From assembly GCA_028753945.1 (NCBI GenBank), contig JAPNXP010000007.1:2790001-2854000 (forward strand): a stretch of 64,000 nucleotides of DNA. The letters are read 5' to 3'. Below the pieces are notes generated by a model that did no database searches, was not told where the DNA came from, and saw nothing but the letters and a program-made list of their open reading frames with translations. This document shows, piece after piece, positions 7,048 through 63,904 of this stretch. The stretch's first letter is position 1, and each line of letters opens with the position of its first letter. The position numbers and the translations under genes are program-made. The DNA comes from Hexactinellida sp. DTS-2022 (taxonomy: Eukaryota > Porifera > Hexactinellida).

Positions 7048-7622
7048 CTGTTGGTTTCGAGAAATAGTACAGCCTCTTTCCAATATTGCTACATATTTCC
7101 AGTCAATAACTGTTAGGAGATTACAAAATTCTCTTCGTGCCAACCAGAATGAATGATGCCTCATAGATAAAAATTTAGAAAGAGTATCCAATACTAAAGT
7201 TCCATAACAACTTAACAACAATTCCGGGATACAGTTTTTCAGTGCTAAATAAGAAGCTTTGGCGTGTATTCCGTCGTAAGAATTCAGTAGTTGAGTAAAT
7301 GAATCAAGTAAAAACGACAGTATGTAACGAAATCCAAATTTAGACTGAAAGGAAAGTGAACAACTATTAGAGGTCTGGATATGATGTTTGATAAATAACG
7401 AGGACAAAATAAGAATCTTTTCAACGGTAAATGGATCTGGGTGGGAGAGAAATAAAAAGACATCACAAATATATGATGTAATTGAACCATAAGATGCTTC
7501 AGATTGTAAAGGAAAAAGAGGAATAAGCAATAATTCAGGTATTAACCGAAATGCTGCAGACAAACAGTTGATTGTTGAGTTCTGAATACAAATTTGTGAG
7601 ACTCCATGATACAATAAAGACC
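7048..7622 (-). CDS. HTT: Huntingtin exon (N-terminal HEAT region)
   Basis: Huntingtin is a large HEAT-repeat scaffold protein active in vesicle transport and autophagy. This 575-nt exon encodes 191 codons. Two stretches match the huntingtin N-terminal HEAT domain along their length: the SYICDVFLFLSHPDP block, and the ALKNCIPELL...FWLARREFCNLL...IDWKYVAILE block, which corresponds to the vertebrate segment ending IDFRLVSFLE. The acceptor is ttcag before 7622 and the donor is CAG|GTAAAT after 7048. Two starting bases complete the codon left by the 18519 exon and give an uninterrupted helix-rich reading. The frame opens at the acceptor, so the first methionine of the open frame is not a start. 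Confidence 0.92.
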
Positions 7623-7645
7623 CTGAAATTCCTATATAATAGAAT

Positions 7646-7955
7646 TAGTGTTGTAAAATTTCCAAAAATTTTGTTTTCTATGGAAATTTCCGGAAATTTC
7701 TGGAAAGATTACATATTTCAAATTATGCTTAGGAACTTTAATTGAAATTGCCAAAATTTTTGTGCTACTTAAGTTAGACTATCATGAGGGAAATAACAAG
7801 CGCACAGTATCAAATCTACATTATAGATATGGTTTATCAAAATTCAAAAAACTAGGTATATATAATAATTTTTCCTTGTAAAATTTCCGGAAATTTAGCT
7901 ATTTTTGGGAAATTTCCGAAAATTTCCTAGGAAATTTTCCGAGCTTACAACACTA
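7646..7955. mobile_element. hAT MITE, TAGTGTTGTAA family
   Basis: The termini are TAGTGTTGTAA and TTACAACACTA, flanked by the exact 8-bp duplication AATAGAAT (7638-7645 and 7956-7963). Inside, variants of TTTCCGGAAATTT recur in both arms. It lies in the HTT intron only 23 bases upstream of the acceptor of the large exon. Confidence 0.92.
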
Positions 7956-8125
7956 AATAGAATGAATTACAAATAAATCACATTATACATTAAGAGGTTA
8001 AAATTGTTGGATTAATTTGCCTTATTATAAGTTATAATTAATTATGTGATCACCAAGTGGATAGTTACTTAACTATATGCGCAAAGGAGGCAAAGTGAGG
8101 ACATAACTTAAGGCTGAGTGATTGG

Positions 8126-8282
8126 CAAAGGCGGCGGACATACAGTTGTAATGATAATTTCCAAACCTCCGTGCTTTTGGAACGGCCGCTTTTCTTACGT
8201 AAACACTGGATTTACGCCCCTCCAACAGGGGGGCGGAACAAAGATCTGGGGAAGCGTCCGCCCACTCCTCGCTCCGCCACTC
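8126..8282. mobile_element. hAT-like MITE, GC-rich
   Basis: Ends CAAAGGCGGCGG and CCGCCACTC are an imperfect inverted pair. The flanks carry the exact 8-bp duplication GTGATTGG (8118-8125 and 8283-8290). The short open frame across it is incidental. Confidence 0.75.
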
Positions 8283-8659
8283 GTGATTGGCTTTAACTGT
8301 AATATACAGGAAACTTAATCTTTAGGGTATTACTTTGTATCTACTTTCAAGCAGATTTAAATTATATTTGTTGATGTAAATTAATTGCTGACACAGAATC
8401 ATACCCTTCACATTCAATAGATGATTACCTAGAGACACATTCTAGAGGGCATGCACACTAATAAAATTTGCCAGTGTCTCATTCAATCATATACCACAGG
8501 CTTTCCCTCAGGCTTGATTTTCCACACCCCCCACAAGAAATTTGGAAAGTACGATGTTATTATTAAGATGTAGCAAGCAGTTAGAATAGCTAAACTAGTC
8601 AAAACCCAGTACAGAACAATAATAATTCTCTACAATAGGTTTTTTTTTAAGGTTGAGAC

Positions 8660-8790
8660 CTTGGTGTAACTCAGTGGGGCTTGGTGTAACTCAGTGGGGC
8701 TTGGGGAACTCAAAACTGCAGCGGCCGAGGCCGACCCGAATCGTGGTGTAAATTAACACTGCAGCGGCCGCGGCAGGCCCGAATCGTGCA
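8660..8790. repeat. Two short tandem duplications
   Basis: A 20-base unit (ttggtgtaactcagtggggc) occurs twice in a row at about 8660-8702. After it, a ~40-base unit starting actgcagcggccg and ending cccgaatcgtg occurs twice. Confidence 0.8.
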
Positions 8791-8989
8791 GTAAATGACT
8801 GTAAATTTGGCTTAGGATTCGAAAAGAGTCACTTCTAGTTATCATAAATTGAGAATCATTCGAAGGAGGAGATACGAAGGTTTTCCGCGTATGATTTATT
8901 TCAATTATTAAATTTTCAGTTGGTTATTTTCATCTTACAAAGCCGCACTGGTGGCTCATCAAAGATCACTTTCTCTAAATTTAATTACA

Positions 8990-9660
8990 TTTCTGAAAAG
9001 TGCGATTATACTTTTGAGAGATGGAGGTTTATGTGATTAAAATATTATTTCAAAATTCCCAAAATTTTGGAGTTATAAACATTCAAACTTGATTTTGGGA
9101 AAATGACAGCTAGTCGAAAATTGAAAAGTCAACTTAGTAGGATTAGTTCAAAGTGTCAATTCCTATCCATATAAAACTGAATCTAATTTATTTTGGTATC
9201 ATTCGTTAGAGGAAACACGGAAGTTTTCAATGTTATTAAATTTTCGAATATTCGCTAAATAACAGATAAATCAGTCTTCAGAAAAGAATTGTAAATTTCG
9301 GTTTTTATTGTGTTTTCTTTTAAAACGTGAAACTGAATTTTCCGAGAACAAATAAAATCAGAATCGATTCTAAATTTATCGGATACTATCTCTGATATAT
9401 TATAATTCATTCCCCCGAAAGGAAAACAGGGGTTGCTAGTAATTTCTTTCAGAATTTTACGAATATCTTGGACAGCAATGTATAATTAATTAATTAAATT
9501 TTCAATATTCATACTTTAGTTAGCTCAGTATACACAAGTATGCACCTATAGCCCTAAATGGTATTTTGTCACAGGTCAAATTTGCGTCACACATTGGTAG
9601 TTCCACTTACAAATTTAGCTATTGCGCATTAGGCTATTCTTAGAATTTTTAAGCCTCGAC
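8990..9660. repeat. Dispersed repeat, copy 1 (inverted to 61920-62620)
   Basis: About 670 bases match the reverse complement of 61920-62620 with moderate divergence. Shared landmarks include gaatcgattct, the attcattcccccgaaa block, and gcgcat...aggctattcttagaat. Neither copy has clear termini or coding capacity. Confidence 0.75.
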
Positions 9661-9898
9661 TCAATCTAGGAGGAGATTTCGAACTTGACATTCATTGTTT
9701 TTAATATTCATCATTCTTTCAAACTTTTCCTTGATTCTTCTACTATTTTCTGGAATTTTAGTTCTCTCTCAATGATTTCTATTGAATTATAGCGTGCTCG
9801 CATCGGCTTGCATTGCAGCCGCAGATGCAACAATATCCATCCAGGCTCCTATTTAGACAATGACTTAAGGGATGCAAAATTATGGTTTTCAGGAATAA

Positions 9899-9980
9899 GG
9901 GTGGCGAGGATATGACCGCGCGCGGAAGCACGCTGTAAGGTAGGGGTGCGAGGGATGGCGGAAGCCAGCCCTCGCCACCC
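9899..9980. repeat. GC-rich inverted repeat
   Basis: GGTGGCGAGG is mirrored by CCTCGCCACC about 60 bases later. This may be a small hAT-like remnant, but I could not find a target duplication. The antisense frame at 9779-10117 that covers it is not believable as a protein. Confidence 0.45.
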
Positions 9981-10264
9981 CTAAAAAGCCAGCCATCATC
10001 ATCATCAATCAACAGACTAAACTGATTCATTGTTTCGATCATCTTGGCTTCTAATGGTTGTATAGTAGCCATTCTACTAGTCATTGGCGGCATCGAGATA
10101 GATCCTGGGACTATCACCCCAAATCAAGATACTCATCACGAACGAGGCAATTTTGACTGATATATGTTATGCATGTGAATAACCTTTATTGTTATTTCTT
10201 TTAGAACCACCAGCTGAGATAAATCCTTTGTCGACGCACTCCTCTCCACAACACTATCATTTGA

Positions 10265-13200
10265 ACAATTGGTCCAGCCCCTGTCTGCAGCTACAGTTCG
10301 CCCAGTTCCATCTGTAAGAAAGTCTACTTGCGTAACAAGCAGTGTTCGGAAAAAACAGCCCTTTTCTAGAAAAGACCGGGGCAGGTGGAAAAAACCGCCC
10401 TTTTCTGGACTTTTCTGCCTTTTTCTATTGACTGGCCTACGCGTAATTAATATACGTATTTCGGTGTATTTAGTGGTTAATCCACTAACCTTTGTATAAC
10501 ATTAGGGATCCACTCTCAAAAGTCCTAATTTAACAATCGTTGGCACTAGAAGTGTAGAATCTCTTTATAATATCTGTCTCTTGCATATAGAAGCTGACCA
10601 TAAATGGGCCTATAGTGTTGCCATATATGGTCATAAGTGGGTTTTTTCAAATTTACTGCCCTTTTCCGGGGTGGAAAAAACCGGTTTTTTCCGGTTTTTT
10701 CCGGGGTGGTCTTTTCTGGCAAACACTGGTAACAAGACTGAAAAGAGACATAGCTTGTACTTGAAGTGGAGAAATAATTCTTATTACATAAGAACCCTGC
10801 TGAGGGATGCTCTGAGCGAGGTTAAGCCTTTAGTAAGCCCCCCAAGTTCGGAGGAACAATTTCACGTGAGTTATAGTCTTAGTAACTTAACTATTCAGAG
10901 CAGAGCATCATTGGTAACTTCCACAATTCTTAAGAAAGTAAGTTTAAGTGTAGCTGCTTGTTTCGATCCATTATCGTTATTCGAAAACTTAGATGTAAGA
11001 AAACATGAATTGAATGGAGTGGACGATAAACTTCTTATTGAGTGGGCATCATCTGCATCCGACCAAGCTGTGAATGACCGGTTGAAGAAAATAATGAAGG
11101 TCTGTATTACATGTTCAATACAACTGAATGCCAGTTATGGGTAGACGGCGCTCTGTTTTATGGATTAATCAATCCACAAATGTTTCTGGTTTTTACAATT
11201 CGAGGAAATGTGCTATTTTGATGAGTGTTTTGATTATATTACCACGATTGTAAGTACTTACATCAAAAGCTTTGTGGAATGTACCCCTTTATTAGTTTTG
11301 TGGTTGTCTGAAGTACAGCTTGAATGTAGTTTCTTGTATCAAATGTTTGGTAAGAAACATGTGTTTTTAAGTGGAGATGACTTGAGTATTTTTATTACTT
11401 GGGTAAAGGTGTTAAGAGAAGAGTACAATGCTAATGGTGTTAAGTGCTTAGAAAGTAAGTGTACTGATGTTAATGTTAGAGTTGAAAGTGAATTTGGTGA
11501 ACTCGCACTTCCTCGATCTCACGATGTCGCTGATATTAAAAATGACAACATTTAAACTCAAATGGTGGTAGAAAGTTCTGAGTTTTAAGTTCTAAGTAAT
11601 ACGAGTAGTGACTGTGGTGAGTTTTATCCCGAACTGAGTGAGTGGGATAATCTTTGTATTACCAATTCTACTGGTAAAACTTCATTGGTTAGTATTGGAC
11701 TAATGTTTTTGCTGAAAAATTTAAAGATTCAACCCCAATGTGTGTTTTGAAGTTTGTAATTATTGGTTTAAGAAACCTGATAGTTTCAAGGTTAATAATC
11801 CTTTCTTCAGAGCTAGAGCGTATTGTAGGTTTGAAAATTGTCGATCTGATATCTTCTATAATGATGATGTAATTTATTCGATTATGACATACTTGTCAAG
11901 ATTTACTCAGAAGGATATTTGTTACTGTCAACTAAGCACAGCAACACAGATTAAAGGGAAAAATCAACAAAGATAACACAAGGATTCTGCATTAGTGGGC
12001 ATATTTATGATGGCATCAAATAGTTTTCTTCATCCCGTCAAGTGCAGGAGTGAGTTTAACTAATAACTTGTGTCACCCATCAATATCACATTAGCCATGA
12101 ACTACTATAGATAAGGACTGGAAATTACTACAAAAAATTGGACCATGGACGAACTAGAAGGGCATTCGATATTTTTGCCTATTACAATAGGTTATTAACT
12201 TTACACATAAATTATGTTGTTTTAGCTGGATTCGACGCTAAAAATGGACTGGAAATGCATTTTAAGTGTCTAGAATTAAGGTATTATTAATGACCCATAA
12301 ATATTGAAACTATATTTGAGTATATATATTTGTTTTTGTATTATGAGTATGAATGTAAATTTTGTACGGAGCTTTGTAAGCGATAATTGATACCCAATTC
12401 TTTTATGCATTTACTCCTTATTTCTTTACTTTTTCTCTATTTAAATAGTTTATATGAGTCAAACGCGTTGTTATACTTAGCACACGTTCTGTATTTGGAA
12501 GACAAATTATAGGGGTTACCTTAGTACCACTGTTTTCAGATTGCCGAAGTTTCACGTGATATCAAAGCCAAATGGAGTAGAGCTCTCCATGGACTGATAT
12601 CTCCAAGAATACAAGATATTATTTGTATCCACAACCTTAGAGCGGAAGAATACATTACTCCCTCAAGTTCCACACCCAACTTGTCCAGAGAGAGCTCTAT
12701 ATATTGTTTGATTTGGACTCAATAAAGTTGATAATAAACAATTGGCTAAACTTGGACATTGAATCATTGATGTTACGTTACTCTTCACTTATTTGACTAC
12801 TAAACTGAATGAAGCTAAGATTAATGATATTCGATTATTGTACAAAGAAGAACGACTTTCTACTATAAAGTAAGCTCACTACCTCAGTAATGTATGTTGG
12901 TCCACAAGTATAGTTCTGAAATTTATCTAGCATTTGGCGTATTCAACGATAAATACTCATCTTAAACATGTGCGTTTGAATGAAGAGATTCTAGACATCA
13001 TAGCGTTTGGGTTTCTTGAATTAGTTTGTAAATTGCTTGAGCGAGGGAGTTCAACAATTGGAAAGGATGATAAACTTAGCGCACAAAATTTCAAAAGTTC
13101 TAGTTTTTCGTTTTCCCAATCTTGTATTGCTCGGCCATTAACCAATTCACAGCTCACTCTAATTGAGGTTATGAGAATGTTCTTAGCTACATATAACTCC

Positions 13201-13470
13201 AGAATACCCATTACCCAATAGAGCACCTATTTGGGATTTATATTGAATGATGAGCGACGCTTAATATCACATGACCTAATCTATAGTATTAAAGAGTCAA
13301 CTTGGCCTAAACCCAGTAATGGATTTGACAAATCCATCTACTCCACAGTTCTGTTAAAACCTATAATTTTTCTTAGTCAATTTATCCACACTTTTCTTCA
13401 ACAACAGATGGAAATAATTCATTTTCTTGCGACCAGGATATTGAAGTTATTCATGATCTAAGCTCTATCG
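10265..13470 (+). pseudogene. Decayed protein-coding tract, family not recognised
   Basis: Several plus-strand open segments follow one another. The first spans 10265-10339 plus 10737-11144 and becomes one frame if the hAT MITE between them and one copy of its duplication are discounted. The others are 11208-11555, 11740-11976, 12934-13221 and 13231-13461. The third segment has a compact aromatic/cysteine block (NYWFKKPDSFKVNNPFFRAR then CRFENC) of the kind seen in DNA-binding domains of transposons. A possible acceptor (ttcttttag) ends at 10204. I cannot assign a superfamily. The FDPLSLF segment near 10970-10990 is faintly like BEL/Pao retrotransposons, too weak to call. Frames are broken by stops throughout. 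Confidence 0.4.
10340..10728. mobile_element. hAT MITE, CAGTGTTCGG family
   Basis: Ends are CAGTGTTCGGAAAA and TTCTGGCAAACACTG, with the exact 8-bp duplication GTAACAAG (10332-10339 and 10729-10736). Motifs of the type TTTTTTCCGG fill both ends. It splits an open reading frame. A second copy spans 56461-58009 and is itself interrupted by two other elements. Confidence 0.93.
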
Positions 13471-14205
13471 ACTTCGACATTCATATTCTCCAATCTGTTG
13501 TGCTTGCTCTTATTATCTTGAAACCACTGACTGCCATCATTGTATTCAACGATCAACTACTTACTGAAACAAGGATATTGAAATTACAGAGGCTACGAAA
13601 TATGACCTTGTAAGATATGTATATATTGATCGTGGGTCTATTAAATGGCCTTCAGATATTGAAACAGAATCAATTGTGGTATTGTGGGAGATATCAATCA
13701 AGTTTGATTAAAATCAAGCTTTAAAAAACAATCATATCCCCCCCCCGCCTTCTAGAAAAGTGTGAATTCGACTAGCTCAAAACGTATTCGTTGATAAATC
13801 TTGCTTAGAGGAATATCTCTCATAGTTGTAGAGTTCGGAGGATATTTAGTACTAATATCCACTAAATGCACATTACCTAAAGATATTCGGAAGGAAATTG
13901 AAATCAATTATTTAATAACAAATACTATGCATAGTAATTCTGTTTTCATTTCACATTTTGTTATTTGAGTACTTACAATATTGCTTGTATGTTAATGGAT
14001 AACTTATTTCTACAATGAATGGATGTCAAATATATGACAATATTACATACTTAGTTTACAGAGTCAAATCCAGGTTAAAACAACATAATTCATGTGTAAA
14101 GTTCATAACCAATTGTAATAGGCAAACATATCGAATGCACTTCTAGTTCATCCAAGGTCCATTTTTTATTGTCGTTTCCAGTCCTTATCTATAGTAGTTC
14201 ATGCA
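12098..14205. repeat. Long inverted repeat with ~150-bp arms
   Basis: The arm 12098-12250 (catgaactactatagataagg...ctggattcgac) is repeated in reverse complement at about 14050-14205 with few differences. The loop is ~1.8 kb and holds the last open segments of the unrecognised coding tract. It may be the inverted end structure of a DNA transposon or a local inverted duplication. Confidence 0.7.
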
Positions 14206-15117
14206 TCAGCTTATCAACTAAACACAAATACATAATCACGGCCCAAAGTATTCGTACAGATCAATAATTTATATGTTAATTTTGTACATTCACCAACATT
14301 TCAATAGAAGTAGACACTAAATGGGTTTCAAAATGGTGAAACTCAGAAATTAGTATATCAGGGATAATAATTTACAAAGTTAAAGTAATTTTGAATTTTT
14401 TCAATGTTAGCAAATGAGTTCATTAAATATTTATTTATGTCTACAAAAAAGTGTTTCAAATTAAGAAGGCCTGATTGTGCATATTTTGATTAAGGTGACA
14501 ATTTTCTAAAAATCCCACAATTTGTTGTTAACTTATCGACTCTTCCAAATTACCACTTGACCACAATGGAACATGCAGGCCACTTAAGAAATGTCGACTA
14601 AACATGGCCCAAAATATTTAGTAAACAAGCTAATAAACAAACTCGAAAATCCAACATATCAGACTAGCTTGATAAGGCACATATGAAGTTCGTAGCATAT
14701 TCCCGCATGTTCCATTTGTGGAACAGATTAATGATTGATATGAATACATTTGGTAGGCGAGTGTATATCGTCAGGTGTTTTAATTTACTAGTACACCACT
14801 ACAAGTGCGGACATGGAAAATGCTATAACTATTCCTTCAGGCAAAACGATATATACCAGTAGCATTGCCCAAAAATATTTTTAAGATTATTTCTCAAATA
14901 GGGGATGGAAAATGCGATAATAAAAAGAATTTTTTAAATCATTACGTATATACTGAAAATACCTTCATTCCACTACGATTGCGGTTTGGATAATATGACC
15001 AAATTATATTTGGGCTAAATATAGAAATATTAAAAAATTTATTATTTGAATGTTGCCGAATGACAATGCGAGAATGCATCTGATTGTCTATGTACATTAT
15101 GAATGCTTAGAATGGAC
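14206..15117. other. No gene seen
   Basis: AT-rich intron sequence without terminal repeats or frames over 60 codons. Confidence 0.5.
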
Positions 15118-15867
15118 CAGGGTTGCCAATCGAGCCATTTTTGGACAATCGACAATCCAGATTTAGTCAATCGATTATTCGCATGACAATCCAATAGAAA
15201 TCGACAATCCCAAATATTATCGATTATTATCGATTGTTTGTTCGATCATTTTCGAATGTTTCTTCGATTTATTTCGATGTTTCTTCAATTTTTTAGATTG
15301 TTTCTCCTCAATATATAGATATCAAAAACAGTAATGTTTCAAACTTCAAATATATATTACCAAATAACTTATATAGAGCTCAGCTCTAGTATAGTTCAGT
15401 TTTTCAGTACGTGTATTCAGGCACTGAGAAAGGTCAGTTTTTCCCAGAGTTTGAAATTGACCTTTATAAAGTAAGCCTGGGCTTTTAGTATGGGAAAAAT
15501 CTGAACTCTACTAGAGCTCAGTATATACAGTGGCAGCGCCACATGGCCCCCCCTGTTTTGAGGCTGGCCCCCTAGAAAAACATTGTTGTACAGTGTGGCC
15601 CCCCCCTAAAATCCCCCCTAGCCCCCCAAAGCTCCCCTACCTGAAAATCCAGGCGCCGCCTCTGGCTCTATATAAGGATTCTCATATATTATTGGGTTTA
15701 ATTGAAGAGCAATTGAGTATTTTAGATTTTGGGATTATGTAGGGATTTAAAAAACAAAGAAATGAAAAAATCGGGAAATCGAAGCAATGCATTCGACAAT
15801 CCAATCGACTAAAAATGCAGCAATCGGCAATCGAGAATATTCTCGATTGCATTGATTGGCAACCCTG
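15118..15867. mobile_element. hAT element, CAGGGTTGCCAATCGA family
   Basis: Ends CAGGGTTGCCAATCGA and GATTGGCAACCCTG are flanked by GAATGGAC and GAATGGAG (7 of 8 matching). The motif ATCGA/TCGAT recurs throughout. It carries nested inserts: an inverted-repeat stretch at about 15370-15525 (arms based on ctctagta-gttcag) and a GC-rich block at about 15531-15663 starting CAGTGGCAGCGCC and ending GGCGCCGCCTCTG. Confidence 0.8.
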
Positions 15868-16605
15868 GAATGGAGCCAGATACCTTCCTTTCAAAATGCG
15901 AAATTTTAACACCACTGAGCGAACGAGATATGAACTTGAAGCAAAGTTCTAGATTGAAAAAGGATTATGTTAAAGAAATGAAAACACACATTTGAATAAT
16001 CTAGACCAAGTTTAGAACATGGAAATTGGATAAGCTTCAAACAGAATGAATAATTCCTTATATATTCACAAACTTGAGGCTAATGTTATCACTTCTATAT
16101 CATCAATTGAAACTAAATAAAATGTTAAATAGATTAGTAATTATGATCAACAAGAAGAAAAGGATATCAAATAGAATTGAAAACAATAAAATCTGCCCTA
16201 ATTCCGTTGAAAAATCGATTCTGAGTTGTACGTGGAAAATAATATACTTTTCCAGGACAACCAAATATTTTAGTCAGAATATTTCTGTCGATGTTATTTT
16301 AATATCATATACAATTAAAACATAACCTTTATATATATATATATGCGAAAAGTGTCAAAAATCAAGTGTTCTTTTAAGTATGTTGTACTTGTATGGAACA
16401 TATTCGCCAAGTGTCTGTCGTGGGATAAATTGCTCCATAAGATATACTTGAGGTTTGCCTAGGCAAAACTAAGGTTTACGGGCACATTCAGGGATATTCG
16501 GATTATCCGGGATTAACGGACAAAAATACCCTGCTTTTCGAAGAATGAAATAATATATATAGGCATACATTTTGTATATTAAATCTCAAAGATTTTTTTG
16601 TTTTT

Positions 16606-16634
16606 CTTGTTTGTTTGTTTGTTTGTTTGTTTGT
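16606..16634. repeat. GTTT microsatellite
   Basis: Seven consecutive GTTT-type units. Confidence 0.9.
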
Positions 16635-16655
16635 TAAGAATTGATTGAGGAACTG

Positions 16656-17222: not shown

Positions 17223-17339
17223 CTACAGACTTGAAATTTGGCATGGGGGTAGGGAATAGTGTATCTAGAAACAAATTCTAATATCTAAGAAAAACATTGG
17301 TATCTTCCCTCTCAAAAGGAGAAATTTCTTTTAGCATAT

Positions 17340-17530
17340 TAAACTCGAGGGTTTTCCAATATGGATTATCAACTAGCATTCAATTAGTATAAAAAGATTT
17401 TAGTGTCTCTACCAAGTGCATTATAGAATGCCTATCTGAGACTGAGATTTAATTGGTATAGAGGAAGATCATTCATCCAATCAATTATTGTGTTCCCTCA
17501 GTCTACCCATATGTTTCTAACATTCCATTG
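17340..17530 (+). mobile_element. Helitron family B, internal fragment
   Basis: This matches the middle of the family B copies at 34903-35745 and 37136-38023 (attcaattagtataaaa, tctctat...gagact landmarks). Both ends of the family are missing. Confidence 0.6.
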
Positions 17531-18455: not shown

Positions 18456-18518
18456 AATAATTATACCAAATTTGAATTATATCCAATGTTTAAAACAACA
18501 ATAATAATATCCAAATAC

Positions 18519-51927: not shown

Positions 51928-54900
51928 TCTCCCTCCCCAAATATGAGGTGTTGATGCTAGTGTATGGGGTTGCCGAACAGATCAGGTTCCTTCCGAATCC
52001 TGGATGAACGCCTCAACATGTGCTGCTCCGAGCATTCCATCCCAGCTTGTACTCCAGGTAGATTATCGACTACCACAGTATCTCGGTCTTGAGACTGTAC
52101 ATCCGTATAGAACCCCACTTCTCCCGAGCTGTCTTGTCCTGCCTCTGACCCTTCATGCTCGTGTTCCAACTCCAACGACTCACCGTGGCAGACACGGGGA
52201 TAATCTTGCAATCATTATGGTGGATCCATGAAAACCGGTTATTTCCCTTTTGATCTTCACGTTTGGATACTTTACATCGACCACCGAGTACGGTCCAGTA
52301 TACATCTTCCCTAGACCATCAATCCGAGTAAAGTTCTTATACGTTATGGTTTGCCCAGTACACACTATCGTAGGTAAGCCAACTGTTCTTCTATCGTAGT
52401 GCCCTTTACTATGCGCCTTGCTGGGGATCATGTGTTCTGCCGCTTCTTGCCATTCTTCTTTCTTTTCGGTGGTTGGGTACTCGTTAGTTCCTATCGTCTG
52501 GTCCAGCGCCGACCTAATTTTCGCTCCGAACATCAGTTATTGGGGTGTAAAGTTGGTGCTGCTAGTCTGCTACTCTTAAGTGAATTCACGGTGAAGGCCA
52601 CTTCCTGTAGGATATTCGGCCAAACAGTCTTGTCCGGTTTTCGCTCTGACAGAGAATATCGTAGAGCTTGTTTAACGATCTCTACTGTCCGCTCAACTTG
52701 GCCATCCCCTTGGGGGTGATAAGGTGAAGAATGCCTCTTTTCAATCCCGAAATAAGTGCACATCTGACGTATCACTTCCCCATCGACATTTCACCCCTGG
52801 TCCGACAGTAATACATCTGGTACCACATATCTATACACCCATCCTGTTTCTATGGCGATCCGTACAGATTCAGCAGTCTGGTCTTGTATAGCGGCTACCT
52901 CTACAAATTTCGAAAACAAGTCCACAATAATAAGAATATATCGGTATCCGTCGGCTGACCACGGCAAGAGTGCAATGGCGGTGCTATCATTCTTCTTGGC
53001 TCTGCTACATCTAATTCGATGGGCCTCAGAGGTTCCCTCTTCTTAGTAGCTATCAAGTTCTCTAGACATATGACGCATGCCCTACAGCATTGTTCTACGT
53101 ATTTCGCATTCCAACCCAGTAGAATCGATCTCGGAGGTAGGCATACGTGGTTTCGATCCCTGGGTGAGATATCCGATGTGCTATTTCGGTCATCTTTAAC
53201 CTAAGTTGTTTAAACGCGTATTGCGTATAAATCGTATATACGTAATACGCTATCGATCAGCACGTATTATACGCTAATCTATGATCAACTAGGAATGTTT
53301 TCAAAGTAATTCAGTAAAGCATATTTTTAAATATTATTGGAAATACAAGATTCTAGCAAATAATACTATACAGACTATCTATGAGTCGATTAACAATGAA
53401 AGAATAACTATTAAACAGAAAGTTGTTCAAAGGAAATTTCATGAGCTCGATATTATAACTAGGGTATAAGTATAACAAGTACTACATTATACGTATTATA
53501 CGTAAACGTATCCAATAAAATACGTATTAAACAACTTAGTCTTTAACCTTAAACGGTTGGGTATTACCAAAACTCTCTTGAGAAACAGCTTTCCTTCTAC
53601 GTCTATCCTCATGCCTTCTTGCTTCTTATATGGTCCAACCGATATATTCCCGTGCTCCCTTAGTTGTTGACAGGCGTTCACAATGCTCTGGTCTCTGAGC
53701 TGTCCATCCCGGAGTACGTAACGAAGTGTACCCACTTCTTGATCTAGTATGTACACGTTTCGCTCGAAACTCTCATCATTCATGACTCTGTCCACACTCA
53801 TAGGTGTTCGACTTAAATAATCGGCGCAGCCATTGGACTTTCCCCTGCGAAACTGTATTTCATAGTTTATTGGCTCAAACTCCAGGATCCACCTGGTATA
53901 TTTATTGCGAGGGTCCTTTTGCCGTCTTAGCCACTGCAACGGATGATGATCTGTAATTATTAAAACCTTCCTTGCTGCCTGTAAGTAGACCTTCCATTTC
54001 CTTAGAGCAGAAATTACCTCGTATGCTTCCAGCTCTCCTGCGGAGTATTTCCTTTGCGCATCATTCAAACTACTCGAACAGAACTCAAGAAGTTTTTGGT
54101 TTCCATCCTCATCATTTGGGACTATACAGCTCCGACAGCAGTTTTAGACGCATCTGTTTCCACAAATAATGGCTATCCCAATTCGGGATGGCCAACTGCC
54201 GAGGCTCATTAACCAGTTGATCCTTCAACTTTTGATAACTCATCTCACACTCCTTTGTCCACATCCACGGAACCCCGCTTTTCGTGAGTTCATTAAGTGG
54301 TTCCGCGGTCCTGGAAACAATGCGGATATACTCCCGATACCAGTTTATCAGTCCAATGAGCTGCCGCACCTCTTTTTTCGAGATAGGCCGTGGAAACTGT
54401 GCCATCTTCCATAAAGTGGTAGGTAAGGGGCGCTTTCCATCCTTAGATACCAAATGTGTCCTGGGAGTTCCACTTCCTCATACCCGAAAGAACACTTCTC
54501 CACTCTTAGTTGAATTCCACCCTCATAGAACCTCTCCAGTACGCCCTCCAGGTGGCTCAGTTGCGCTTCGAAATCAGGTGAATGAATACATGTTTCATCA
54601 CGAACGCCTGCACATTTGGGCATCCTCGGAGAGCCTGATCCACAGCCCTTTGGTAGGTCGCTTGTGAGTTCGAAAGACGAAATGGCATACGGTGAAACTC
54701 GAATTGTTCCCGCGTTGATACAAACGAAGAAGGCTCCTTATATTCTTCCTTCACTGGTACATTCCATTAAGCAGAAGCTCCATCCAATTTACAGAAATTC
54801 GTGCTCCCCCCTATTCTGTCAAAATATTCCGTGATCCGGCATGGGGTAAGCATCCTTTTTCGTAGCATCATTTAAGTCACGATAATCTACAGCGAAATGG

Positions 54901-55440
54901 TGCGATCCGTCCTTTTTTTAACTAATATGACTCGGCTTGCCCATGGAGAGGTCGAGGGACGTATGATATTGTTTTGGAGCATCTCGTTTATTTGTCTAGT
55001 TACCCTGCTTCAATTTCAGGAGATCCTCGGAGGGGACGATGTCGGACCGGGCGCTCGTCCAATAGCGTGATTACATGTTCTGTGGTCTTGACCTCTCTAG
55101 GCTTCTTTGGAATATCCGCGAAAACCTCGCCCCATCTTTCCAATACTCGGTGTATCGCCGTAATTTCGTGGGGGGAGACTGGGATTTACGTTATATTTCG
55201 TAACCCTTGCACCCTTGACCTCTTTCACCTCCATTTGTAGGACCTCGGCTCTCGTGACGGCCTGGCCACCCTGCCATGGCTAAGGAGCTTATCCAATGAG
55301 TCCCTAGCTTAAATTGCATCCTCTCCCAATCGAAAACCGTTTGTCGGAATAACGATAAGAATCGTCGGCCTAAAATCGCTGTCCTTGCGTTTGTATCCAT
55401 AACCTCTACTAAGTGATCCACCCGTTGACCATCTCCCACA
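51928..55440 (-). pseudogene. Ty3/Gypsy retrotransposon pol, broken
   Basis: Minus-strand order: end of the aspartic protease (AILGRRFLSLF...DW, 55439-55191), reverse transcriptase pieces (54754-54112), RNase H and tether (YSAGELEAYEVISALRKWKV ... DYLSR, 54068-53770), integrase with C-x2-C finger remnants and core (YRYILIIVDLFSKFVEVAAI; LSDQG; YHPQGDGQVERT, ~53100-52533), integrase C-terminus (52533-52180) and a charged tail to 51957. The RT active-site region around 54585-54600 is shifted by one base and reads DE where DD is expected. A hAT MITE sits in pol (53202-53540). Gag and the 5' LTR are missing, replaced at ~55450 by a hAT fragment. Confidence 0.9.
53202..53540. mobile_element. hAT MITE in Gypsy pol, CGTATTATACG motif
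   Basis: Inverted ends TAAGTTGTTTAA and TTAAACAACTTA, duplication CTTTAACC (53194-53201 and 53541-53548). CGTATA/TACGTATTA motifs are dense at both ends. The frames of integrase and RNase H lie on either side. Confidence 0.87.
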
Positions 55441-55451
55441 TCTATCGAATT

Positions 55452-55912
55452 AAAGCGGTGTAATAATGAAAGTGAACGAAGTTATCAAAGAGGTGGACTC
55501 TTGTCTAAAATGCCTTCTATTGATGCAACAATACTACCCTCACAAACAATTATAGAACATTTAAAAAGCAATACTGGATCCAGAGAACCAAATAGGAGTT
55601 CAATGTTTTCATGAATGGAGTTCGATGAAGAGCACACTACTTTTCATGGCACTAATAAATCTGAATTAGACGACTATCTTATCAAGCACATTATTCCTCA
55701 TGATTCTGATCCATTATCATTTTGGAAAGATAATGAAAGCACCTACCCAACCTTGAAGAATTAGCGAAGAAATATTTAGCAATTCCTGAATCATCTGCAC
55801 GGGTCGAATGACTTTTTAGTTTGGTGGGAAAAATTTCGTCCGGATAGGTAGGTGCAATCTGCCTGACGAAAGATTTGAGATGTTGATGATCCTCAAATCA
55901 CATCTCAAATAA
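55452..55912 (+). pseudogene. Ac-type hAT transposase fragment (C-terminal dimerisation domain)
   Basis: Plus-strand frame from about 55620: ELDDYLIKHIIPHDSDPLSFWKDN..YPT, then one frameshift, then EELAKKYLAIPESSARVE, stop, LFSLVGKISS. This is the hAT C-terminal dimerisation region (consensus DPL-W-x-YP-LA-LA-KYL-IP-TSA-SER-FS-G). The upstream part to 55452 is less certain. It cuts off the 5' end of the Gypsy element. Confidence 0.85.
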
Positions 55913-56601
55913 AGTAGTCTTAACTTACTAAATACTTAGGACATTAGGAATTGTGTTCGTGTCTAGGACTACTGCTACGTTCAATTAAATAGACTTGGAT
56001 GATACTATATAAACTAGGCATTTAGCTATTTCTACTATTAGAACGATAGAATTTATGACAAGAGCTTGGGAAGTACTTGTACTGGTACTCTTTCCAAGCG
56101 TAATTTTACATTATATAAAATGACGAAAGGAAAGAATAATATATAAGCGAACGCTCGTAATTTCCTAGGTTACTGCTTGGTAGTGTAAAGATGGAGCTTT
56201 TTGAAGATGGAAATTGAATGAAAGGCTTGTGTCAAGAACTTTGTGAATGCAAAGCCAATATAAATTCCCCGCTGGAACTCAATCCATGAAGTTAAAATTA
56301 CAGCTGTGAATTTGAAAGAATCGAGCAACAATATGAAAATTCTGTCGATAAGCGACCTAGCAAGCTAAGTTTACTAGTATAAACATAATATGAATTAGAA
56401 TTCTAAATTATCTTGCCTATACTATTATTAATAGATACCAGAATTATCGATTCGACACCTCTAGTTCTCGGACAAAACATTTCTAGAAAAGAATGGGGCT
56501 GGTGAAAAAACCGCATTTTTCTGGAATTTCTGCCTTTTTCTAATGACTAGCTTACGCAATTAAATATTTAGGTTACATTGCGGTTACTGTTTTAATGTAT
56601 A

Positions 56602-56789
56602 CAGTCGAAATCGGGTTTTTTTTGCAACGGTTTTTTTTCCTTATAAGGTTATTTTGCCTCATTGCTTCTCCTTGTTTCTTCACAACCTCATAGAACTGTA
56701 TATTGTTAAATACGGGTTTTTTTGCGTATAGGGTTTTTTTGCCTCTTTTTCCATGCATTTAGGGGGGCAAAAAAACCCAGTTTCGATTG
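56602..56789. mobile_element. Pogo-like MITE, CAGTCGAAATCGG family
   Basis: Ends CAGTCGAAATCGGGTTTTTT and AAAACCCAGTTTCGATTG between TA dinucleotides; GGTTTTTTTGCC motif repeated. Sister of 23217-23386. Confidence 0.85.
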
Positions 56790-56851
56790 TACAAGGAATT
56801 AAATGCTTATTCCATAACTCTCTCTCATAGTTAGAGGTAATCACTATTAAA

Positions 56852-57704
56852 TGAACTGTGCCGACTATACTATAGTATAGTGGACAAGTTCTAATCTCAC
56901 TGCCAATATTTTTATTTCCTTTTGTATGTTTCTCCGTAGACGGTGCCCAGGCCAGAGCTTTATAGTGGATGGGCTGAAACGTGGCATGTAGGTTGCACCT
57001 GGGGTTACGATTTTTGATCAATACATTTTGCACACATGCTTAACACCTTTCTAAATTTGTCTGGTCCATAACTCAAAAAGAGTTCTACAAACCCCCAATT
57101 TTTATTTAACTTTTGGATTCATCTTAAAATTCTGCTTCTTATGGGAGAAGAAATCTTTTAATAATGGGTTTAATTTCTGCCATAAATGGGGGTTGAAATT
57201 TCTTTGTTTACTACACTACAATTTCAGTAAACTGTTAAATCTCATTCTATTGTTTCAACTTGTAATAATTATATTGATTTGACTTGTTAAATCCTACTCT
57301 ATTGATTCAACTTGCGATAATTATATTGATTTAACTTATAAATTCCAGCTGGCTTCTATTTAATTGTAGTATTACTATACAATAGATTAAATCAAGTAAC
57401 TTAATATCAGGAATTTGTTGAGTTAACTCGCTCACCGTGGATAACATTGCTAAAATAAATAAGTAATAATATAATTTGTTATCAATACATAATGACGAAT
57501 GGCATTAAACTCAAGATGGTTTATGATAGAAACAATCTTCAAATGTATCTACCGTTCCTTGTGACACGGACCAATTAACAAATGGTTCTTGACATCTTGA
57601 GGCGTTGATGACTTAGCAAAAAAATCCAAAATTGCAGCCTGTGCCGACTGCATGTATCAAAATAAAGTGCCACCAGAGGAACATGCGTCGGCACAGGCTG
57701 CAAT
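56852..57704. mobile_element. Family X copy 2
   Basis: Starts CTGTGCCGACTATACTATAG, ends with the hairpin ...GTCGGCACAGGCTGCAATTT. It is reverse complementary to copy 1 (48801-49704). Uninterrupted in the places where copy 3 has the pogo-like and Helitron insertions. Confidence 0.8.
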
Positions 57705-58137
57705 TTTTTTATTCGAGGATTCCTAATACCACAGTTCGCTTATCAGCGTTCAACTTTCGGTGAGATATTGATGATTGGCTTAACATTAGGGAACCGAATC
57801 ACAAAGGTCCTAAATTCAACAATCGATGAAACTAGAAGATAATTTCTTCAGATTATCTGTCTCTTGAATATAGAAGCTGACCATAAATTGGCCTCGAGTT
57901 TTGCCATATATGAATTTTCAAATTTATTACCATTTTCCGGGGTAGAAAATCCAGTTTTTTCAGGATTTTTCCAGGGTTTTTCCAAGGTGGTGTTTTCTGG
58001 CAAACACTGGACACACCAGTGGTAACTTTGATTATGAGTCATTTCAATTAGATTGTGTCAAACACTCCATTTAGATATGCCAGAATTTATAAACAATATC
58101 GACATAATATATGTATTAGAGCCGAGCGATAAGAGAA

Positions 58138-58434
58138 GAACACGATACGAACACGACACGAATTCGTGTTCGTGTCGTGTTAGGCCAAGGTTTTCGTTTT
58201 CGTGTCATTTTCGTGTTAAAAGTTCATGTATAGTGTCATGTTCGTGTCGTGTTCAGTTAAAGTTTCAAGGGGGTTTTGTTATTAATATTATACAATACTT
58301 GTGGTGGACAAGTTATTGTATAATATTCGCATGATATTATCTTAAATCAATATATTTATTCATTTAATTTTCCCAACTTTGTATTTCGTGTTGATGTTCG
58401 TGTTTCGTGTTCGTGTTTCGTTTTCGTATTTACA
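58138..58434. repeat. Array of CGTGTTCGTGTCGTG motifs
   Basis: Direct and inverted copies of cgtgttcgtgtcgtg cluster at 58138-58260 and again at 58380-58434, with ordinary AT-rich sequence between. The layout resembles the motif-rich hAT MITEs, but I found no convincing termini. Confidence 0.6.
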
Positions 58435-60150
58435 TTCTATATTTACAATTACTAAGAGATTTAATTTTAGAAATTTGGGAAATTAGATGATCCATATGAA
58501 GTAAGAGAATCCACAATTTCCTACATTTAATCTATAAACTGTAAATCCTAAGTAAACATTGTTTTATGTCTCTGTCCAATTATATTGAAAACATATAAGG
58601 AGGCGATAGTGGCCCTTGAAATCTTTCAAAAGTTCCTCAAAGTTTGTGGCCATGTGTATAAGTGGCTGCTAATATTGCAACTACGATATAACTCAAGAAG
58701 TTGAGCCAGTCAAAACATTTTCAATCGTAAATGCCCACTGTGTATTGCAAGATATTCATAGTAATCTCACAGTGGTTTAAACAGCCGACATAAAGTCACC
58801 CGAAGAATATTGAGTCCGCATTAAAATTCCTGTGAATCAAATGATGTTGTTTTCTCTATCGATGTATTAAAAAAATAAGTTATTTAATATTTTGTGATGA
58901 TGACGTGGCATAAAAGTGACCGCGCCCTTTCTCTTTTGGAAGTGACAAATGTAAAAAATTTCCGTTAAAATACCCAGCAGTAAGTCATTTCTATTTCTAA
59001 CATTGGCATATTGGTTTGGTTTCTAGGTCATAATTGTTCAACTTTTTAAATCTAAGGACAACCAATATAGTCGTATTAGTCAAGTTTTGAAACAAATGAT
59101 TACTTATTTGTTTAGGGGATTACAGTATATCGATTTTAAGAGTTAGTGCGTGTCATCAATTTTTGTCAAAAAAAGTAAAGTAGCTTGTTCATATATATTA
59201 TGCTCATGTTGGATTCAAACTACTAGGTTTTAAATATAAATACAAAGAACTGCAGTGTTTTTTATTTTCCTGAAAATATTTCGGTTAACTTGTCCATTAA
59301 ATAGTCAATGAGTTGAACCATTCCATATTTTTGTATTTTGTTTTAGATATAACATAACGTTTCACATAAAGAGTCATGTGGAAGTGTCTACAAAGGATAG
59401 ATTGTCGATAGAAGCCTTGACAAAATCTAGTTGTTCAAAGTATTTTGGCCGTAGATTTAACAAGTTGCAACACCACAATTAAACAAGTTCGACCAAGAGA
59501 AATCAATTTCACACTTTCATATGGACTGAAATATTAGTAAAGGAAATTAGTAGCCCAAAGATGCATAAATTAAGCGAGTATTGCAAATTCGTGAAGTGCT
59601 ATCATGGGTATAAATTAATTCCCCATCCAATGCATGCAAATTTAATTTTTCACTTTAGTTTTCCAGTTATAACATTGGGTGGGTGTTAAATTATGACAAA
59701 TATATTAATACAAAACGTGACCCCAGGTGCATATGCGTAACCCAAGACACACCTTCTCAAGGAAGAGTTTGATTGACGAAGAGCTCAAAATCCAGAAATT
59801 TTGAGCCATGAGTCATTCAAAATTTGGAATGGGGAGATTACTCTGATGTACTAAAATTACAAGTCAGTAAATTCAATTGCGGGCCACTAACTAAAGTATA
59901 GTGACCTAAAATCTTTAGTGGCGATTAATGTACAAATTATACATATAAGTAATGACAGAATACGTGAACCAAATTTGAATGGAATATAAAATGACATATT
60001 GGGTCCAAAATAATGAAATCTTTTTGAGTAAACACTTCAGTTGTTTTCAGCTAATATGCATCTTCCTCTAAATATAAATGGACAAGTATTGCACTTGTTT
60101 TAAAAATAGTGCCTAATAAACAAATAAAAATTGAAATTTTTTTAACAAAC
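58435..60150. other. HTT: HTT intron, nothing recognised
   Basis: AT-rich sequence. Short blocks near 59700-59900 (aacgtgaccccaggtgca; gggccactaactaaagtatag) echo family X and may be an old copy. Confidence 0.4.
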
Positions 60151-60292
60151 CTAATATCTTCTTGAGAAGAAGGAAAATATAATATGCAGGGTTCTTGCAA
60201 TAAATTACCAAAGAAACAAGGACATTTGCACCAACCCTTCTTTTAATAGGTGACTCCATTGTCAAAAATTGAACCCAAGTTTCCATAAGATC
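60151..60292 (-). CDS. HTT: Huntingtin exon (HEAT region)
   Basis: The 142-nt exon lies between acceptor aactatttag and donor TTAG|GTTTGT. It encodes LMETWVQFLTMESPIKRRVG..VLVSLVIYCKNPAYYIFLLLKKIL, matching the huntingtin segment [43 protein letters not shown] without gaps. The one base left over plus CC of the 42924 exon continues directly into the LVP motif, as in huntingtin. Too short to stand out as an open frame. Confidence 0.92.
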
Positions 60293-60931
60293 CTAAATAG
60301 TTAGAATAAATAAAATAAAAGAGTTTGAAATGATCAGTATACAACAATCAGAATCAAATTCGATGCATTATCCGACTTTAATTTTGACCATAGCCTACCA
60401 TACAATAAGGTTGAAATATCGACTAAGGACAAGCAATAGCCGGTGTATTAAACCAAGGAAATTATCAAGCTTGATTTTGTTAAAAAGATTAGATTTGATA
60501 AAATTGTTATAGCAAGAAATAAGCAAAATGGCATATTATTATATAATGTGGTAACAGATATTTTCAGACTTTATTCTAATATTTTTAATCACACTAACGC
60601 CTTTTGTGAGTTTTAACTAATAGAATGCTATTGAAACGTGGCAAGAAGTTGCAATTTCCCCGGATAATTTTCGACAGGAAAATATCCAAGTCTGTTATTA
60701 AGTATCCAAAGGAGATGAATTTTCATACAAGAACCTCGTGCCAAGCCGAGGTGAAAGAAGGCGCCGTTCCGTTTTCTTACATGGATGTCCGAGTAATATC
60801 AATTTACCTCGAAATTCAAACGAATAAAATAGTCATTGGTTCAAAAGAAGAATTAAAGAAAAACTTGCAATTGAGCCTGATATCTGAGAGTAAGGTGAAA
60901 GAGAAGTACAAGATCAAATCTAAACAGGAAA
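60293..60931. other. No gene accepted; one Lys-rich open frame
   Basis: A plus-strand frame starts at 60625 and runs into the Helitron at 60932 (lysine-rich, e.g. SKEELKKNLQLSLISESKVK). It matches no family I know and its end belongs to the Helitron, so I treat it as unproven. Confidence 0.35.
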
Positions 60932-61413
60932 TCAATAATATTAAAACACAAGCTTGGGTATATAGGTATATTTGTTTGTACGTTAAGAGTTGATTGAAGA
61001 AAGTGGACGGTTTCCAAATGTGATTATTAGCATAGAGGGGTAAGTTTTGGCACCAGCCAACAAGTTGAGGTTTCCACTCAAAATTTCTTAAACCTCGACA
61101 AGTTATGACGTCATTGTCACATTTCGAGAACCCTGAGAATTCACTTAATCGCACATAATTCAAAAATCTGAAATTAAATAGAACATGCACATTAATGATG
61201 CGGACACTTTGGTCACACCAGATTGCCAATATGCTTAATCATTATCACATGATGACGTAATCACTAAAATTTCACATTTTTAAATTTGACTATTTAGGCC
61301 GATTTACGCTTTATAATCAATGTTAAAAGTGTATAAACCATACACCAACCGCGAAGCGGTTGGTATGTGGTTGGGTTCTGCCGCAAAGCGACCTAGCAAG
61401 CGAAGTGCACTAG
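60932..61413 (+). mobile_element. Helitron family A, nearly full-length copy
   Basis: Starts with a mutated 5' end (TCAATAATATTAAAACACAA) and ends GCGAAGTGCACTAG before T. Palindrome present (61343-61375). Tail-to-tail with the fragment at 61452, the same subtype as 41263-42300. Confidence 0.85.
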
Positions 61414-61451
61414 TATATATAGATATACTGTAGCATCAATTTATATAGATA
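61414..61451. repeat. 38-bp spacer between two Helitron tails, copy 2
   Basis: Reverse complement of 41225-41262 with two differences, again exactly between CTAG ends. Confidence 0.88.
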
Positions 61452-61890
61452 CTAGCGTGCTTCGTGGAAGAACCCAACGACCGCCAACAAGTTGAGGTTT
61501 CAACTAGAAATTTGCCACACCTCGACAAGTTATGACGTTATTGTCACATTTCGAGAACCCTGAGAATTCACTTAATCGCACATAATTCGCGCCCTTTAAG
61601 AGATAAAAATCCTAAAATTTAATAGAACATGTACATTAATGATGCGGACATGCTGGTCACACCAGATCGCCAATATGCTAACTCATTATCGCATGATGAC
61701 GCAATCATTACAATTTCATATTGAAAATTTGACTATTTAGGCCTATTGCGGATTATTATCAATGTTAGAAGTGTATAAACGACACACCAACTGCTTCGCG
61801 GTTGGTGTGTGGTTGTGTTCTGCCGTGAAGCGACCTAGCAAGCGAAGCGCGACAGTATATATATATATGTTTGTGTTCCAATAGTGTAGG
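61452..61890. mobile_element. Composite Helitron A: minus-strand ends around a plus-strand body
   Basis: 61452-61482 is a minus-oriented 3' end (CTAGCGTGCTTCG...). 61483-61861 is a plus-oriented body with palindrome and 3' hairpin (ending GCGCGACAG). 61866-61890 is a minus-oriented 5' end (ttgtgttccaatagtgtagg). This looks like a Helitron inserted in, or an inversion within, another. Confidence 0.68.
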
Positions 61891-61919
61891 TATGCATTCC
61901 AAATATCAAAAAGGCCTAT

Positions 61920-62620
61920 TTAAGTTTGAGTAAAACTTAAATATTCTAAGAATAGCCTATATGCGCAACAGCAAATCTCTCTAAAATGTGAAAGTGAAAA
62001 TAACGATTATGTCACGCAAAATCGACTTGTCATTACTGAGCTTGTCGCTAACAACTTAGGTATTAAATTTAGTTAATTAGTGTTTTCCATGAAAAGAAAA
62101 TTCAGAAAAAATGACTGCGAACCATGTTTTCTTTTTCGGGGGAATGAATAATAATATATCAGAGAAAGTACATGTAAAGTTTGAATCGATTCTGATTCAA
62201 TTTATCTCGGAAAATCGAGCTCAAAGTTTGAAAAGATAAAACAATAAAAACAGCTATTTAAGGCATTTAAAATAGATTTATTTGTCTGTTATATATGGAA
62301 TATTCGAGAATCTAATGGCATTTAGGTAAACCTCCGTGCTCCGAACGAATGATGCCAAAATAAATTAGATTCAGTTTGATATTGAATAGGAATTGACACT
62401 TTGAAGCAACCCTACTCAATGGACGTTTCAAGATTATACTTTCACTCTTTTCCCAAAATTCTAGTTTGAATGTTTATAACTGAATGTATATTAGGCAAAT
62501 ATTAAAAAAGAATTAAATCACATAAACCTACATCTCTCCAAAGTAGGATTACAAATTTTTAGATTTGTAAACATATTTTGAGATAGTGATTTTCTATGAA
62601 ATACAAACACTGCATTGTAT
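61920..62620. repeat. Dispersed repeat, copy 2 (inverted to 8990-9660)
   Basis: See 8990-9660; the two copies are ~52 kb apart in opposite orientation. Confidence 0.75.
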
Positions 62621-63273
62621 GATAAAAATAACCAAATGAAAGTTAATTTTTTTTAATAAATCAAATTATGGAAAACCTCGGTATTTCCTCTGTCGAATGA
62701 TAACAAATGTATTCAAATCTGAATACTGTAATTGAGTCAAATATCTGACTGATGTGACCCTTGTCGAATACAAAGCCAACTTCATACTCATTAATGTACA
62801 GTTTAATCGAAATTTGGGTATTCTCTAAAGTGCATTGATAGCCTAAACCAAACTACGCCTATGGAAGGGATTTTGGAAGTCATACGAGGGATCAATGGTA
62901 GGACACGCAACGGCCCTGTTTTCAGGGAGGATTTATAAAGAATGTTTGAGGCAATACAGTCACACCTTTAACAAAAGAAATTTAGGTCAGATAGTAAATT
63001 TTGTGGAAAGGTTAGGTCAATGGCTGTAAGTCGTTTTTCTTTGCATTCAAAACTTGTTTGCATACACCTAGGTACCAGCCCACTGAGCCCAGCATCGGTA
63101 AGGATCAAAGGTGATTGCAGTATGATTGGATTTAGGTTGGTACTTAATTTAGGTGTCAGGTGTTGGCCAGATTTGCAGGCCCTTTTAAGTCCTGTATAAA
63201 GCCCCATTTGGGTACCAAACGAAACTTTCCTCCATCTAATAGTGCCGCATCATTGAATTATACCGATCATATA
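62621..63273. other. No gene accepted
   Basis: The minus-strand frame 63207-62968 is open for 79 codons. I compared it with the huntingtin segment expected here and found no convincing match. Confidence 0.4.
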
Positions 63274-63363
63274 CACACTGTTCTCTATAATATTCCACCA
63301 GTGGGAAATTGGCTCAAAGTGGACCATTAGAGAGAGAAGTGGACAATTAGAGAGAACAAACTG
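63274..63363. mobile_element. Small pogo-like MITE with AGAGAGAA motif
   Basis: 90 bp between TA dinucleotides, ends CACACTGTTCTCTATAAT and AATTAGAGAGAACAAACTG, imperfectly inverted. TGGACCATTAGAGAGAG-like units repeated. Confidence 0.65.
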
Positions 63364-63365
63364 TA

Positions 63366-63832
63366 TAATGATATGCATTTAGGGTGCCATACATATGTAT
63401 TTACCTCCATAATAAAGTGCCGGCCCAGAAAGTCCTATATAATGCCCTGAGTTTATATCCAAAATTATATATATATTCGTGAGGTTATATTATAATGATT
63501 CGATAACTAAATGTGCCTAACGCACATCTCGGATAAAGTTATTCAAAAAAAAAAGAGTAATAACGACTACATGCACAATGATATAGAATATCAGCATAAT
63601 AAATATCATACAGATAGTGTATGAACTGTGACCAAAATAAATTGCTTCCTAATTGTAAGAATTTCTAAATTTTAAAACTGGGTTATAGATTAGAATAGTT
63701 CACAGTTATATAGGAATTCGAGCGAAAGATATAATCAATTAAAACGTTAACAATTACTAATGGGATAATTCCAAATAGTTTACTAAGCAAAACACAATAG
63801 AATGACATTTTAAATGAATGAAAAATAACAAC
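63366..63832. other. HTT: HTT intron, nothing recognised
   Basis: AT-rich; no terminal repeats seen. Confidence 0.4.
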
Positions 63833-63904
63833 CAGTATATTCTGTGAAGTAAAGAATCTTGCTAAGTGTATGCTCATCGTCCCAAAAGAATCTATAAATA
63901 CTTC
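63833..63904 (-). CDS. HTT: Tentative huntingtin exon (most N-terminal in window)
   Basis: A 72-nt, phase-0 exon between acceptor ttttttcttag and a weak donor CTG|GTTGTT. It encodes EVFIDSFGTMSIHLARFFTS then QNIL, which lines up with the huntingtin helix ending ASFGNFANDNEIK, and it joins in frame to DLMETW of the 60292 exon. Identity is low and the exon is short, so this is a positional call. Confidence 0.45.

Follow-up and report, generated by a model that had tools for sequence, protein, structure and literature searches.

A putative huntingtin gene with located exons spanning 609 kb in a hexactinellid sponge

We analysed a stretch of 64,000 nucleotides (the window, C16:2790001-2854000, where C16 is contig JAPNXP010000007.1) from the assembly of Hexactinellida sp. 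DTS-2022, which comprises 112.4 Mb in 18 contigs. The window very probably carries a mid-gene portion of huntingtin (HTT). The gene lies on the minus strand, appears to be intact and present in one copy, and has located exons that span 609 kb. The protein family is well known, and the presence of huntingtin in a sponge is not new because an HTT ortholog has been reported in Amphimedon queenslandica (PMC7725122). What is new here is the size of the gene and the contrast it makes with the other genes sampled in this genome.

Seven huntingtin exons in the window

The window chain consists of seven minus-strand exons that together form 1602 nt, or 534 stop-free codons (Table 1). All seven are preceded by AG and followed by GT, and their phases are compatible; an alternative acceptor for exon 7, at 7631, is equally in phase. 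A sequence-only reading of this DNA had proposed seven minus-strand exons with AG/GT borders in perfect phase, and as its total of 534 codons equals that of the chain that we rebuilt, the two are very probably the same.

To identify the product, we searched its translation against 177635 distinct PDB sequences. The seven exons joined gave human huntingtin with an E value of 4.5e-19 (72 bits; 9 of the 17 matches are huntingtin and the best other match has E 0.048), which bears out the proposed identity, and the alignment covers human residues 243-397 and 678-887. Exons 1-4 joined (203 aa) matched huntingtin 243-397 (E 4.4e-7; 9 of 17 matches huntingtin, the best of the 8 others at E 0.15), while exon 7 alone (191 aa) matched huntingtin 711-887 (E 6e-10; 9 of 9 matches huntingtin). 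For all queries tested, huntingtin was the sole significant PDB match, with the non-huntingtin rows at E 0.048 or worse. Furthermore, the Pfam families PF20926 and PF12372 matched exons 1-4 (E 9.4e-6) and exon 7 (E 1.5e-5) respectively, each slightly below its curated cut-off, and at E values up to 1 huntingtin families alone matched these two homologous parts.

The four exons beginning at 7048, 39423, 42755 and 60151 follow the N-terminal HEAT region in order, as had been claimed. The claim that they do so without gaps did not hold: the alignment of the exons 1-4 join has small indels, and the disordered part is shorter than its human counterpart (query 168-322 versus human 398-677 in 6x9o numbering, that is 155 versus ~280 residues). 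Between 39.4 and 18.8 kb, further small exons of this disordered stretch are possible.

Next we examined whether codon usage supports the individual exons. Each exon was scored with a model trained on the other six (leave-one-out) against a background of open AG..GT segments of like length, with pools above 3000 sampled. Exon 5 had the best score of all exons, with none of 2178 background segments as good, and none of 174 equalled exon 7. The background segments as good or better numbered 11 of 1744 for exon 4, 50 of 1464 for exon 6 and 179 of 2209 for exon 3. For exons 1 and 2 codon usage gives no support, with 1394 of 3000 and 711 of 2577 background segments scoring at least as well, and their placement rests on homology. 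Exon 5 showed no homology.

Thirteen open reading frames (ORFs) of at least 120 aa are listed in the window. Exon 7 is among them and is, as stated earlier, the only one of the four exons named above to stand out as a long ORF; in the chain as a whole, exon 5 also falls in a listed ORF (165 aa, 22983-23480). The warning that a routine search could miss the gene applies to the single exons, which score near or below Pfam cut-offs, but not to the joined translation, which plain phmmer detects. The protein is recovered with confidence only once the exons are chained, and an annotation procedure that caps intron length would probably fragment such a gene.

Exons beyond the window

We searched the whole assembly with PF12372 (E up to 0.001) and with PF20926, PF20925 and PF20927 (E up to 1), scoring first-look candidates only. 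This gave 11 matches (2 to PF12372, 5 to PF20926, 1 to PF20925 and 3 to PF20927), of which 8 lie on the minus strand of C16: both of PF12372, the one of PF20925, all three of PF20927 and two of the five of PF20926. These eight follow the exact order of the protein, on one strand, over 609 kb. Five of them are weak singly (E 0.026 to 0.37), and the weight is therefore carried by order and strand. Outside C16, no match to PF12372, PF20925 or PF20927 was found among the first-look candidates of the 112.4 Mb searched, a sequence set that is possibly incomplete; huntingtin thus appears to be single-copy in the genome searched.

PF20926 matches on three other contigs were rejected as additional huntingtins. 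The one on C11 is splicing factor 3B subunit 1 (SF3B1; PDB E 5.9e-226), the one on C18 is GCN1 (7nrc chain GCN1, E 1.7e-75), and the one on C7 is MROH-like (PF23227 at E 1.5e-5 versus PF20926 at 4.8e-4). The MROH-like (C7:1110183-1110518) and GCN1 (C18:810853-811218) matches lie in open frames of 1709 and 2627 aa, unlike the finely split huntingtin.

Eight further exons with AG/GT borders and open frames were delimited outside the window (Table 1), so that the upstream and downstream exons that had been anticipated are present on the same strand and in the right order. The C-terminal ones are at lower coordinates, 329 to 468 kb away from the window. For the 200 kb at the 3′ end we ranked 2168 open segments of at least 26 codons by codon score, in which the C-terminal exons found by Pfam came 2nd, 8th and 1127th. 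A C-terminal join of 438 aa was then chosen by eye, for huntingtin likeness, from 134 high-scoring segments plus the low-ranking Pfam exon. It matches C-HEAT 573-929 (PF20927, 93 bits, E 1.3e-26) and human huntingtin ~2666-3024 (E 8.6e-30; 10 of 10 PDB matches huntingtin), E values that are inflated because the segments were picked by eye. In a bulk scan of 4 of the 10 segment strings, two had C-HEAT matches and two had none. The joined C-HEAT and one N-HEAT exon (38.4 bits) pass the Pfam cut-off, whereas the bridge and N-HEAT_1 pieces are below it.

Taken together, the located exons extend over 609,073 bases (C16:2931500 to C16:2322428), and 242,767 of these bases were read. The earlier figure of ~57 kb is correct inside the window; as the extent of the gene it was set by the window edges. 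The window perhaps holds about a sixth of the coding sequence.

Table 1. Positions of the exons, introns, domain matches and transposon remains (plain numbers are window positions; C11 and C16 are contigs of the assembly)
Feature	Position	Strand	Description
Window exon 1	63833..63904	-	72 nt, phase 0 to 0, EVFIDSFG..SQNIL; AG/GT borders; within PF20926 match beginning at residue 4
Window exon 2	60151..60292	-	142 nt; ~ human huntingtin residues 252-298 (6x9o numbering)
Window exon 3	42755..42924	-	170 nt; ILGFLLCLRHLAPYL aligned with ILGVLLTLRYLVPLL
Window exon 4	39423..39648	-	226 nt; homology in exons 1-4 join
Window exon 5	23005..23170	-	166 nt; acidic, Ser-rich, at place of disordered region; phase fit, codon score
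Window exon 6	18519..18769	-	251 nt; end aligns from human 678 on (6x9o numbering)
Window exon 7	7048..7622	-	575 nt; N-HEAT region, human 711-887 (6x9o numbering)
Six window introns	within 7623..63832	-	3540, 17226, 3106, 16252, 4235, 10896 nt
Pfam match N-HEAT_1 1-25	C16:2931454	-
Pfam match N-HEAT_1 45-80	C16:2886264	-
Pfam match N-HEAT 4-134	C16:2797443	-	inside window
Pfam match N-HEAT 638-704	C16:2689250	-
Pfam match bridge 125-211	C16:2601007	-
Pfam match C-HEAT 604-661	C16:2456911	-
Pfam match C-HEAT 860-928	C16:2380070	-
Pfam match C-HEAT 953-989	C16:2322523	-
Upstream exon	C16:2931500-2931380	-	121 nt; aligned with human 113-152 (6ez8 numbering), NSTDFSKLLGITFERLFMLCSDECD being in the alignment; 9 of 17 matches huntingtin
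Upstream exon	C16:2886261-2886182	-	80 nt
Exon	C16:2689262-2689048	-	215 nt; human 1422-1487 at E 7.5e-6; 9 of 9 matches huntingtin
C-terminal exon	C16:2461006-2460791	-	AG/GT borders
C-terminal exon	C16:2456884-2456729	-	AG/GT borders
C-terminal exon	C16:2427548-2427358	-	AG/GT borders
C-terminal exon	C16:2380159-2379867	-	AG/GT borders
C-terminal exon	C16:2322515-2322428	-	AG/GT borders
Ty3/gypsy RNase H	53499-54143		PF17917, E 2.8e-19
hAT C-terminus	43350-43676		PF05699, E 7e-4, below its cut-off
TNP-like RNase H domain	32964-33467		PF21787, E 1.8e-5
SF3B1 exon	C11:12175673-12176092		33.3 bits versus PF20926 cut-off 31.2

Integrity, assembly and identity of the gene

Exon homology, order, strand, open frames and splice borders are all directly observed in this DNA. 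We propose that they belong to an ordinary spliced gene, in which a pre-mRNA of more than 600 kb would be processed into one transcript, with exons of 72 to 575 nt separated by introns of 3 to tens of kb. The product would be a large alpha-solenoid with the N-HEAT, bridge and C-HEAT domains typical of huntingtin, and would act as a scaffold, with HAP40, as in other animals. Under this hypothesis repeated transposon insertion enlarged the introns, the setting being a repeat-rich region towards the centre of the 5.6 Mb contig, while the exons would have remained under selection.

Several points weigh against this proposal. Of the 609,073 bases, 366,306 were unread, with most middle exons unseen. 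The bridge match is weak (E 0.37 genome-wide; E 0.0035, below cut-off), the 80-nt upstream exon reaches 19.9 bits in Pfam (cut-off 31.2) and falls outside any aligned stretch in the PDB search, and PF20926 alone is not huntingtin-specific because an SF3B1 exon passes its cut-off. At the C-terminal end, three segments of the join gave no Pfam match when tested singly, one of the matchless strings of the bulk scan held two of the chosen segments, and the last segment (C16:2322303-2322163) is tentative and matchless in the PDB search. The structure model of exon 7, although all-helical with nine helices, is poor (pLDDT 52, no alignment). Finally, the polyQ-bearing first exon that had been expected upstream did not turn up in the 13 kb searched near and upstream of the highest located exon (minus strand C16:2929880-2942954, score-filtered list), where there was also no run of 3 or more Q and no clear exon 1-2; exon 1 would sit further up than the region read above C16:2931500.

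A decaying or split huntingtin, giving several shorter transcripts or no expression, would be in keeping with the great length and transposon load of the locus and with the lack of codon bias in exons 1 and 2. Nevertheless, we consider it improbable: open frames and intact borders are seen in all seven window exons (534 codons) and in the eight exons delimited beyond the window, and no other copy was found in the genome searched. Furthermore, many of the intron repeat copies differ by at least 10%, and neutral exons that old would be expected to hold stops.

We give still less credence to an assembly artefact, in which a shorter gene was spread out by wrong scaffolding. The repeat-rich region is hard to assemble and 366 of the 609 kb are unread, but the 64-kb window and the 200-kb stretch read at the 3′ end are both free of N bases; the seven window exons lie in one gap-free 57 kb, and the seven C-terminal segments in one gap-free 139 kb, in order. 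A different HEAT-repeat protein alike in fold only is already nearly refuted, for while a lone weak PF20926 match proves little, the family also matching SF3B1 (over the cut-off), MROH- and GCN1-like proteins here, all four huntingtin families match in order and no PDB sequence other than huntingtin matches significantly.

Gene size and the content of the introns

The domain order of this huntingtin is identical to that of the human protein (PDB 6x9o/6ez8; PF20926, PF12372, PF20925, PF20927), with a highly diverged sequence, the 72 bits being spread over the joined 534 residues. The solved huntingtin structures are, to our knowledge, all human, and the locus adds a diverged sequence to the family. 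Exons of 121, 80 and 142 nt have what we take to be the sizes of human exons 3, 5 and 7.

Human huntingtin exons range from 48 to 341 nt (PMC2206037), so that the 575-nt exon here is longer than the largest of them. The same source gives gene sizes of 180 kb for human, 80 kb for fishes, more than 50 kb for amphioxus (63 exons) and 33 kb for Ciona (61 exons). The amphioxus and Ciona genes are likewise intron-rich, with intron positions partly conserved (PMC2206037), and are far shorter than the gene described here, which at 609 kb or more exceeds three times the published human size of ~180 kb. The titles and abstract openings of the huntingtin literature searched (figures, supplements and most subscription papers being outside its scope) make no mention of a giant huntingtin gene, and a literature search on giant introns and sponge intron length returned no paper.

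Introns measured in six other loci of this genome are of 66 (L044), 78 (L040), ~84 (L003), ~154 (L043), ~577 (L042) and ~809 nt (L036), and in a further locus (L047) the 1.5 kb searched did not contain the next exon. This sample is biased to short introns because those above 1.5 kb are invisible to it. Huntingtin accordingly looks like an intron-length outlier in its own genome, although this is not proven. It is conceivable, if somewhat doubtful, that strong local intron expansion carried the gene past 600 kb (~0.5% of the 112 Mb) in an early-branching animal with otherwise short introns (tens to hundreds of nt) or very long uninterrupted exons, and that the gene was kept functional. Conceivable reasons would then be its mid-chromosomal, repeat-rich surroundings or some function of slow transcription. 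Should the other genes here truly be compact, the locus also poses the question of why an old scaffold gene puts up with kilobases of transposon in every intron seen.

The transposon-laden giant genes of Drosophila, which are heterochromatic or Y-linked, likewise have small exons scattered in very long repeat-filled introns. Transcription elongation proceeds at 2-4 kb per minute, and at this rate the huntingtin transcript would take hours to make, which raises the question of how it gets spliced correctly.

The window introns, of 3.1 to 17.2 kb, bear Ty3/gypsy, hAT and TNP-like remains (Table 1), in line with the earlier description of them as transposon-rich. Transposon-family matches at E up to 0.01 were found for 3 of the 20 ORFs tested. 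The spacing of neighbouring located C-terminal exons includes 3.9, 29.2, ~40 and 57.4 kb, and an additional exon may lie in the largest of these gaps. Dispersed repeat families of 0.1-0.3 kb occur in both orientations, with copies 2 to 40% different and many at least 10% different, a range that points to insertions of mixed age.

ORFs at 32-34 kb, 43-44 kb and 52-55 kb of the window were rejected as exons since they resemble P-element/THAP-like, hAT and Ty3/gypsy remains respectively; for the P-element call PF21787 was the sole test and the remainder was judged by eye. A match of 34304-34663 to the RAD24 helical family (E 0.0025, under cut-off) was judged to be chance. The GC content of window 52001-56000 is 0.437 versus about 0.34, and the minus strand of 52000-55500 carries remnants of a Ty3/gypsy polymerase spread over several frames, the clear part being RNase H. 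A second dispersed family, of ~0.5 kb and perhaps a non-autonomous element, has copies roughly 60 to 98% alike in both orientations (4781-5268, 19406-19741, 41194-42295, 51077-51558 and 60945-61868), and several GTAACG-based tandem arrays, also in both orientations, lie at 48700-50350. Plus-strand open frames at 324-1227, which have no Pfam match, resemble by eye the P-element-like 32070-32348 (words LEHHFGLYR and MSGS in common). Outside the window, a long minus-strand open frame with a THAP-like start and a P-element-like body (by eye) lies at C16 ~2388000-2392000, between the huntingtin exons at 2420 and 2380 kb.

Elsewhere in the genome searched, 16 homeobox matches were retained from 21 first-look candidates. 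By their signatures we take these to be of Msx, NK2-like, Bar-like, POU, Islet, Six, TALE, paired and HNF1 types, with presumably no Hox among them. Along with the short introns of other loci, this repertoire probably points to a sponge. COX1 was not found in the genome searched, nor was TTAGGG x5. TTAGG x5 occurs once, and the control pattern GGATT x5 is present 24 times on one strand and 45 times on the other.

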